Below, piece after piece: positions 36,493-42,949 of a stretch of DNA of 64,000 nt. The stretch is taken from NCBI RefSeq assembly GCF_900626135.1, contig NZ_LR130785.1, forward strand, positions 715,241 through 779,240. The letters are read 5' to 3'. The translations under genes and the position numbers were made by a program. The notes beneath the pieces are model-generated. The model made no database searches, was not told where the DNA came from, and was given only the letters and a program-made list of their open reading frames with translations. The DNA comes from Senegalia massiliensis (GTDB lineage: Bacteria; Bacillota; Clostridia; Tissierellales; SIT17). Positions within the stretch are counted from its first letter, which is position 1. Every line of letters begins with the position of its first letter.

Positions 36493-36873
36493 ATGGCAAT
36501 GAAAAATCCTTATGCACAATATCAAAATAATTCAATAATGACAGCATCACCAGAGGAGTTAAATTTAAAATTATATGAAGGGCTTATGAGGTTTATTAAA
36601 GAATCAATTATTTTTGCAGAGGAAAAAAATATAGAAAAATCTCATAACAGTAATTTAAGAGCTCAAGCAATAGTTAGTGAGTTTATGGTTACAGTTGATA
36701 GGAAATATGAAGTAGGAAAAGAATTATATAATTTATATGAATATATGAATAAAAGGCTTATGGAAGCTAATATTAAAAAAGATATAGAAATATTAAATGA
36801 AATATATGATATGTCTAAAGAGTTAAGGGATACTTGGGCACAGGCTATGAAATTAGCAAAGAAAGGCAAATAA
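36493..36873 (+). CDS. fliS: flagellin export chaperone FliS
   Basis: A 126-residue four-helix chaperone that binds the C-terminus of flagellin and prevents early polymerisation. Diagnostic are NPYAQYQNNSIMTASPEELNLKLYEGLMRFIKES and the C-terminal LRDTWAQAMKLAK. Ribosome site TAGGAGGAAT is strong. It ends 1 base before the next gene. Confidence 0.95.
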   Translation: MAMKNPYAQYQNNSIMTASPEELNLKLYEGLMRFIKESIIFAEEKNIEKSHNSNLRAQAIVSEFMVTVDRKYEVGKELYNLYEYMNKRLMEANIKKDIEILNEIYDMSKELRDTWAQAMKLAKKGK

Positions 36874-36874
36874 T

Positions 36875-37345
36875 ATGGAAGTCAAAATAGAAAAATTAAA
36901 TTCTTTATTATCTGATAAAAAGATATTATTAGAAGATTTTTTTAAACTTACAATAGTTCAAAAAAAGTTAATAGAAAATAATGATATTGATAAACTAAAT
37001 CGAATTATAAATAATAAAGAAAATTTAATTGAAAAAATAAATGGATTAGATGTAAAATTTTTAGAAATATATAATAATATTAAAGAAATAGAAGGTATAG
37101 ATGACTTATCACAGCTAAGTATTGATAAAAGTTATTTAGTAAAATTAAAAGAGTTAACAAGTAAGTGTGAAAAACTTATGAAATCTATAAAAGCTCAAGA
37201 TGATGAAAATAATACGATGATTAAAAGTGAGTTTGAAGATATAAAGAAAAATTTACGAGAAATAAAAAGAGGTAAAACTACTACAAATAAATATTATAAT
37301 AAGATGCCATCTAGTGGTGGATATTTTATTGATAGTAAAAAATAG
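36875..37345 (+). CDS. FliT-like flagellar chaperone
   Basis: A 156-residue helical, Lys/Glu-rich protein that starts immediately after fliS. Length, coiled-coil character (LNSLLSDKKILLEDFFKLTIVQKKLI, LVKLKELTSKCEKLMKSIKAQDDENN) and position fit the FliT/FlgN chaperone group; FliT serves FliD. Sequence identity is too low for certainty. It is the last gene of the flagellar block. Confidence 0.6.
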   Translation: MEVKIEKLNSLLSDKKILLEDFFKLTIVQKKLIENNDIDKLNRIINNKENLIEKINGLDVKFLEIYNNIKEIEGIDDLSQLSIDKSYLVKLKELTSKCEKLMKSIKAQDDENNTMIKSEFEDIKKNLREIKRGKTTTNKYYNKMPSSGGYFIDSKK

Positions 37346-37370
37346 AACAGTGATTTGTTCTATTTTTTTT
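37336..37370 (+). terminator. terminator of the flagellar block
   Basis: AAAAATAGAACA / TGTTCTATTTTTTTT-type stem at the end of the fliT-like gene, ending in a run of eight Ts. Confidence 0.8.
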
Positions 37371-37478: not shown

Positions 37479-37600
37479 TTCTCCACATATTTTTCCACAC
37501 GATAACTTGTACTAATATACACTATCCACAGAGTTATACACATTATCCACAGAAATAGGCTATATTTATCCACATATACACAAGCAATAGATGTGGATAA
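37479..37600. other. DnaA-box cluster (origin-like or DnaA-titration region)
   Basis: The 452-base gene-free stretch 37346-37797 contains seven 9-mers like the DnaA box TTATCCACA. Three are exact: 37543-37551 (+), 37566-37574 (+) and 37592-37600 (as TGTGGATAA, minus strand). TTTTCCACA (37491) and TTATACACA (37534) fit TTWTNCACA. TTCTCCACA (37479) and CTATCCACA (37522) have one mismatch. A very AT-rich run (about 37601-37740) follows, like an unwinding element. No dnaA or dnaN is near, so a regulatory or titrating DnaA-box cluster is more likely than oriC. Confidence 0.75.
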
Positions 37601-37797: not shown

Positions 37798-38328
37798 ATG
37801 AGAACTATAATTGCAGGAACAAATATGAAAGTAACAGATGGACTTAGAGAAGCAGTAGAATCCAAATTAGAAAGATTAGACAAGTATTTTTATAAAGATG
37901 CTAGAGTTGACGTAACTATGACTGTGGAAAAAGAAAGACAAATTATAGAAGTAAGTGTACCTTTTGCTGGCACTATTATAAGAGCTGAAGAAGAAACTGA
38001 TGATATGTATAAATCTATTGATATGGTGTTAGATACACTTGAAAGGCTTATTAGAAAACATAAAACTAAACTTGAAAAGAGAAAGCATAATGGAAAGACT
38101 ATTAGATTTGAAAATATACCTTATGAAGATATAAATACAGAAAATGAACCAAAGGTTGTAAAAACTAAGCGTTTTGCAATGAAACCTATGATTCAAGAAG
38201 AAGCAATACTTCAAATGGAACTTTTAGGACATAATTTCTACGTATATAAAGATGCTGACACTAATGAAACTAATGTTTTATATAAAAGAAAAGATGGAAA
38301 TTATGGTCTTATAGAACCAGAATTTTAA
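37798..38328 (+). CDS. hpf: ribosome hibernation promoting factor, long form
   Basis: A 176-residue long HPF that dimerises 70S ribosomes to 100S particles in stationary phase. The N-terminal domain (TIIAGTNMKVTDGLREAVESKLERLDKYF) and C-terminal dimerisation domain (KRFAMKPMIQEEAILQMELLGHNFYVYKD) are both present, joined by a charged linker. A TTG at 37780 is in frame, but the ATG at 37798 gives the family N-terminus. The DnaA-box cluster is in its upstream region, so hpf may be DnaA-affected. Confidence 0.95.
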   Translation: MRTIIAGTNMKVTDGLREAVESKLERLDKYFYKDARVDVTMTVEKERQIIEVSVPFAGTIIRAEEETDDMYKSIDMVLDTLERLIRKHKTKLEKRKHNGKTIRFENIPYEDINTENEPKVVKTKRFAMKPMIQEEAILQMELLGHNFYVYKDADTNETNVLYKRKDGNYGLIEPEF

Positions 38329-41841: not shown

Positions 41842-42949
41842 ATGCTAGAACTAGAAAAATATAATGGTACAGTAAAAGAATTTGAAAACAGATTAAAAGA
41901 GGTAGGTGTTTCACTTTGACTTGTCTAAACTTAGAGATAAGGCAAAAGATTTAGAAGGTGAAATGCAAAGAACAGATTTTTGGGATGATAATGATGAAGC
42001 TCAAAAAATTATATCAGAATTAAATTCTATAAAACAAAAAATAGATAAATATGATGAATTAAATGATGAAATAGAAGACCTTGAAATATCTATACAACTT
42101 TCTGAAGAAGAAAATGATAAGAGTTTTTTAGATATTATTGAAAAAAAAGTAGAATATATTGATAGAGAATTAGATGAGTTTAGAATATCCACATTATTAA
42201 GTGGTGAATATGATAAAAATAGTGCAATTGTATCAATTCATTCTGGTGCGGGTGGTCTTGAAGCTCAAGATTGGGCAGAAATGCTTTTTAGAATGTATTC
42301 TAGATGGGCAGAAAGAAAGAATTATAAAGTGAAAATATTAGATATGCAAAAAGATACTGAAGGTGGAATAAAATCAGTAGATATGTCAATTGTTGGAGAA
42401 AATGCATATGGGTATCTTAAAAGTGAAAAAGGGGTACATCGTTTAGTTAGAATTTCACCTTTTGATTCATCTGGAAGGAGACATACTTCCTTTGCATCAA
42501 TTGATGTAATGCCAGAATTGAGTGATGATGATGAAATAGAAATAGAAACTTCTGACCTTAGAATAGATACTTATAGAGCAAGTGGTGCAGGAGGTCAGCA
42601 TGTTAATACTACAGACTCAGCCATAAGGATAACTCATATTCCAACTGGAATAGTGGTTCAATGTCAAAGTGAAAGGTCACAACATAGTAATAAAGCAACA
42701 GCTATGAATATGTTAAAATCAAAGCTTATAGAGCTAAAAGAAAGAGAACAAAAAGAAAAAATTGAAGATTTAGCTGGTAATTATAATCAAATAGGTTGGG
42801 GTTCTCAAATACGTTCATATGTATTCCACCCATATAATTTAATTAAAGATCACAGAACAAATACAGAAGAAGGTAATACTGATAAAGTTATGGATGGAGA
42901 TATAGATAAATTTATAAATGAATATTTAAAACAGGAAACTAGAAAATAA
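41842..42949 (+). CDS. prfB: peptide chain release factor 2 (programmed +1 frameshift)
   Basis: RF2 releases peptides at UGA and UAA. A 25-codon first frame (from ATG 41842, ribosome site AGGAGAG) ends in CTT-TGA-C; a +1 shift at Leu25 continues as DLSKLRDKAKDLEG to give 368 residues, normal for RF2. The GGQ motif (ASGAGGQHVNTTDSAIRI) and the UGA-recognition SPF motif (ISPFDSSGRRHTSF) are intact. RF2 thus limits its own synthesis: when RF2 is scarce, the ribosome pauses at TGA and shifts. It follows secA by 9 bases. Confidence 0.97.
41900..41920 (+). promoter_or_regulatory. prfB +1 frameshift site
   Basis: CTTTGAC (41914-41920) is the canonical slippery element with the in-frame TGA at 41917-41919. 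The stimulating Shine-Dalgarno-like sequence is AGGTAGGTG, ending about five bases before CTT, rather than the usual AGGGGG three bases before it. Confidence 0.9.

Follow-up and report, generated by a model that had tools for sequence, protein, structure and literature searches.

A geometrically conserved DnaA-box module upstream of hpf, a probable extra-oriC DnaA-box cluster of clostridia

An ordered module of DnaA boxes occupies the intergenic region between a flagellar operon and hpf in Senegalia massiliensis. The existence of this module is well supported, and the explanation favored here, considered probable, is that it is an ancient extra-oriC DnaA-box cluster (DBC) of clostridia that tunes the availability or activity of DnaA, a function proposed by analogy with the clusters of Bacillus subtilis and with Escherichia coli datA and DARS. 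In Firmicutes, such clusters are known mainly from B. subtilis and are regarded as titration sites that are weak and in part redundant. The box spacing of the module has persisted in Tissierellales-like genomes and in other families of the phylum, at two gene neighborhoods, which argues that a chromosomal DnaA element has been under strong selection for a long time. The module provides a defined piece of DNA (about 120 bp) for testing datA/DARS-like control in Gram-positive bacteria.

The boxes and their neighbors in the window, that is, the whole stretch of 64,000 nucleotides that was analyzed, are as follows, with box spacings given as start-to-start distances.

36493 to 36873, plus strand: fliS, a flagellar gene upstream of the module (Pfam FliS, E = 2.5e-34)
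36875 to 37345, plus strand: flgN-like gene, the last of the flagellar operon (Pfam FlgN, E = 2.6e-14)
37343 to 37370, plus strand: terminator-like hairpin with a T-run, ending the flagellar operon before the module (stem TAGAACA/TGTTCTA, read from the sequence)
37479 to 37487, plus strand: box X, TTCTCCACA, one mismatch, 12 bp before box A
37491 to 37499, plus strand: box A, TTTTCCACA, one mismatch
37522 to 37530, plus strand: box B, CTATCCACA, one mismatch, 31 bp after A
37534 to 37542, plus strand: box C, TTATACACA, one mismatch, 12 bp after B
37543 to 37551, plus strand: box D, TTATCCACA, exact, abutting C (9 bp)
37566 to 37574, plus strand: box E, TTATCCACA, exact, 23 bp after D
37592 to 37600, minus strand: box F, inverted, TTATCCACA exact on the minus strand, 26 bp after E
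37798 to 38328, plus strand: hpf, long form (Pfam Ribosomal_S30AE and Ribosom_S30AE_C)

Allowing at most one mismatch to TTATCCACA, the box scan confirmed the seven boxes that a preliminary description had counted in the 122 bp from 37479 to 37600, three exact and four with one mismatch, six on the plus strand and one opposed; the AT-rich stretch 3' of the cluster was confirmed as well. The DnaA of this genome matches B. subtilis-type DnaA (PDB 8btg, E = 1e-185) over its full length, including the recognition domain, so TTATCCACA is the expected site. The start of hpf lies 197 bp past the end of the module. The hairpin at 37343 to 37370 is too AT-rich for the computational scan, and a scan for sigma-70-like promoters returned 12 sites against 15.4 in shuffled sequences, i.e., fewer than in the shuffles. 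An RNA element was considered and rejected, with no Rfam match at E ≤ 0.1 between 36500 and 38600.

Isolated boxes with one mismatch are frequent in this DNA, the whole window holding 32 boxes with one mismatch or better against 25 expected, and a chance cluster in AT-rich sequence might be suspected on that ground. However, in 150 simulated windows (third-order Markov), the densest 122 bp held 1 to 3 boxes, compared with the 7 observed, and the identical spacing is found again across families. Recurrence of the module in relatives refutes the chance explanation, which is left with practically no probability. The whole genome contains 39 exact copies of TTATCCACA (the reversed control word has 66), and three or more exact copies lie close together at only three places, counting exact boxes:

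203 to 205 kb of contig 1: oriC
752.8 kb: the hpf-side cluster
256.4 to 256.6 kb: a third group

The trio at 256 kb was rejected as a like element, being inside coding DNA and without the module spacing; it falls within a pyrimidine-synthesis gene cluster (identified via translation), where GTGGATAAG represents Val-Asp-Lys codons.

Conservation before hpf in relatives, which the preliminary description had named as a check on function, extends through the genus and most of the order. In the genus, the module lies upstream of hpf in all three other genomes, box X has the same spacing in two of them (G003 and G001), and 74% of module positions are identical among three species (S. massiliensis, G001 and G002), compared with 41% for the remaining intergenic region. 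Alignment of 25 order-level copies yields the fixed arrangement A-31-B-12-C-9-D-23-E-26/27-inverted F, in which letters between boxes are conserved as well (CAG before B, GAG or GAC between B and C). Across families, the A-to-B distance is 30 to 32 bp in two alignments, and box D, abutting C, forms the most conserved columns; box E is kept in most of the order and is weaker in the class, and the distance from E to inverted F is 26 to 27 bp in most order members. A profile built for the order (R1) matched 187 of 249 order genomes at E ≤ 0.01, its sole match in the S. massiliensis genome being the hpf-side module (E = 2.5e-24). Among the order genomes with the strongest matches listed, 72 of 88 have the module directly before hpf and in the same orientation, at a distance of 60 to 1,116 bp; the remaining 16 are mostly small-genome members of family f12, and in some the module is inverted or elsewhere.

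Beyond the order, an order-only position weight matrix was applied to 78 mostly class-level loci, of which 24 scored at least 27 and the others at most 10.1, and the 31-12-9 pattern was found again in class families distant from that of the window. At 20 loci against 3.1 expected, the best site shared the strand of hpf and preceded it by no more than 800 bp; because these loci had been cut around hpf, this concentration alone is informative on position. At the hpf loci of the class sample, the module was absent in some families. A broader profile (R2) matched 201 of 299 phylum genomes at E ≤ 1e-4, often twice per genome. Sequences of the same family are not independent, so these genome counts overstate the number of independent events, and the family count is the safer measure. 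In 17 complete genomes (some sizes rounded), the module lies in the oriC-near part of the chromosome, at 5 to 28% of genome length from dnaA; this position was rejected as a sign of selection, because hpf is also close to oriC in genomes that lack the module.

Several other words are conserved around the module among the order-level relatives. AT-rich words such as AATAAGTATAATTGT recur about 100 bp before box A. At 20 to 45 bp after the inverted box, TAAATAATTATTCAA followed by ATGAAT is kept and resembles an ArgR box. Just before hpf, clearly downstream of the module, the word GGGTATNATATNATA is conserved and is perhaps the hpf promoter.

The module is an autonomous element. Its upstream neighbor may be flgN, a treble-clef gene (zf_Tbcl), fur, comFC or a macro-domain gene; on the downstream side stands either hpf or an operon for an amino-acid ABC transporter. 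Genes were identified by their translations, with a Pfam check on representatives. In families f21, f49 and f53, the ABC operon stands between the module and hpf, and in these families and one f12 genome the module is 2.7 to 3.9 kb upstream of hpf with genes between. In family f35, the treble-clef gene and the ABC operon still flank the module, but hpf is reversed, and the module is inverted, 3.4 kb from hpf. In family f37, hpf is elsewhere, and the module has the treble-clef gene and, in most cases, a sigH-like gene next to it. In a Peptoniphilus (L017), it follows immediately after hpf and is inverted. These changing neighbors and the inverted and displaced copies indicate that hpf is the usual neighbor of the module, not its fixed partner.

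The preliminary description had suggested a link between DnaA level and ribosome hibernation; in this alternative, DnaA on the cluster would control hpf transcription and thereby tie replication or DnaA level to ribosome hibernation, comparable to sda in B. subtilis. The upstream position in the 72 order genomes stands, in most of the order at 60 to 600 bp on the same strand (median about 150 bp), and B. subtilis DnaA regulates genes adjoining its clusters (PMC4447404). However, the distance to hpf can reach 1.1 kb; in the cases just described, the module is separated, inverted, downstream or elsewhere; and a twin module exists at tsaD without hpf. Direct control of hpf is accordingly judged unlikely as the reason for the module, and any regulation of hpf in the order may be a side effect of the element.

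The twin belongs to a second locus. Among 30 phylum loci (29 other genomes and that of S. massiliensis), with genes again identified by translation and by Pfam on representatives, 18 have the hpf-type neighborhood (flagellar, treble-clef or comFC genes on one side and hpf or the ABC operon on the other), 10 lie just downstream of tsaD, and 2 are elsewhere. When the region downstream of tsaD was scanned in 50 genomes, boxes were present in most, on the opposite strand, and about a quarter of the 50 were without a cluster. In several genomes, the tsaD-side boxes are arranged as A-43-C-9-D, keeping A and D 52 bp apart (the sum of 31, 12 and 9), and the copy in one genome (G440) has the full 31-12-9 spacing. 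In S. massiliensis itself, the interval 356 to 482 bp beyond tsaD holds non-coding boxes in a less regular arrangement, at a distance of 45 kb from the hpf module. This cluster lies outside the window (G000:C1, about 797.9 to 798.1 kb; L276), past a small TM2-like gene; it faces the hpf module, with most of its boxes on the opposite strand. In B. subtilis, a high-affinity DnaA-box cluster is located between gcp and ydiF, with a Kd of 0.15 uM for ATP-DnaA (PMC4447404). Because tsaD is gcp, the clostridial boxes suggest that this known DBC position is shared with clostridia, the likeness to the gcp/ydiF cluster being one of position. Next to the tsaD-side module, the one at hpf then represents another element of this type.

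Dense boxes followed by an AT-rich stretch had also raised the idea of a secondary chromosomal origin, which the surroundings of the cluster make highly improbable. GC skew is positive on both sides, with no change of sign, and no replication gene is adjacent. The earlier remark that no origin gene lies in the window proved correct: dnaA is on the same contig but 549 kb from the cluster, at 203 kb, together with a complete bipartite oriC. No GC cluster plus DnaA-trio, as read from the sequence, is present beside the last box. The oriC2 of the same genome does have a GC cluster and an interrupted DnaA-trio, visible after CCCC; a strict pattern for a run of four trios matched neither the hpf-side module nor this oriC2. 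The module thus shares the 9-mer and its variants with clostridial oriC1 and oriC2 but comes without dnaA and dnaN, a DnaA-trio or a skew change.

Among known systems, the module resembles the DBCs of B. subtilis, which are likewise dense intergenic groups of boxes, share its consensus and lie outside oriC. The interpretation as a titrating, B. subtilis-type cluster, one of those offered in the preliminary description, gains support from the deep conservation, the fixed spacing and the related module at tsaD/gcp. Nevertheless, the list of the top 20 DnaA sites of B. subtilis contains no hpf (yvyD) site, and the A-31-B-12-C-9-D geometry over many families does not appear in the literature consulted. 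The open-access literature yielded no description of clostridial DnaA-box clusters outside oriC, with hpf, or at gcp.

As a DBC, the module might work as follows. Boxes A and D would bind DnaA strongly; B, C and D, which point in the same direction (B and C 3 bp apart, C and D abutting), would suit a cooperative head-to-tail DnaA oligomer, for which gaps of 2 to 3 bp are best in E. coli (PMC8682772). The 31 bp from A to B correspond to about 3 helical turns and the 52 bp from A to D to about 5, which would place these boxes on the same face of the helix. Passage of the fork would duplicate the element and add sites, free or active DnaA would fall, and re-initiation at oriC would be delayed, with hpf mainly a neighbor of the module. 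Removal of six such clusters in B. subtilis leads to early initiation (PMC5295017).

A sub-version of the DBC reading, overlapping its share of the probability and entertained here only tentatively, is that the element alters the nucleotide state of DnaA, through ATP hydrolysis or ADP release. Spacing that is fixed across many families exceeds the needs of a sink and argues mildly for a further role. Head-to-tail boxes suit ATP-DnaA oligomers (PMC8682772), and, at low concentration, recovery of B. subtilis gcp DNA was 16-fold better with ATP-DnaA (PMC4447404). E. coli datA, like the module, is non-coding, has about five boxes and lies away from oriC; its spacing matters, and it lowers initiation. 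It depends on IHF, however, which binds between required DnaA boxes of datA and is reported absent from B. subtilis (PMC13220808), and it has no neighborhood in common with the module. DARS1 and DARS2 of E. coli are likewise small non-coding DnaA-box elements with a conserved arrangement, but boxes I and II of the three-box DARS core must face opposite ways (PMC8682772), whereas the core boxes B, C and D of the module are co-oriented, as are all of A to E, with only the last box inverted, 26 bp away. Moreover, B. subtilis has no known regulator of the DnaA nucleotide state (PMC5295017, PMC13220808). The sequence does not separate the sink from the nucleotide-state version. It is possible, though rather doubtful, that a dedicated, geometry-constrained clostridial element at hpf and tsaD resets the ATP/ADP state of DnaA, as a Gram-positive counterpart of datA/DARS; B. 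subtilis is not known to have such a counterpart.

A phage origin of the module was considered and rejected: among viral contigs (IMG/VR), only seven carry a triple like B-C-D, and none has box A at -31. In these seven (L310 to L316), the tight triple reads TTWTNNACA-12-TTATNCACA-9-TTATCCACA. The surroundings of the triple are identical in L311, L313 and L315 and differ in L312, L314 and L316, and L316 has about ten boxes in 210 bp.

Two further observations concern other sites. Within the window, prfB (RF2; 41842 to 42949) carries a programmed frameshift site of the classic form, CTT TGA C, near 41914 to 41920, and its entry in the ORF list begins only near that site. Finally, three boxes with one mismatch each, at spacings of 8 and 12, occur at G000:C1:163449-163478 (L035, 2449 to 2478), in the 3' end of an acetyltransferase-like ORF near a gene with a DnaA-like-ATPase match, about 40 kb from dnaA.
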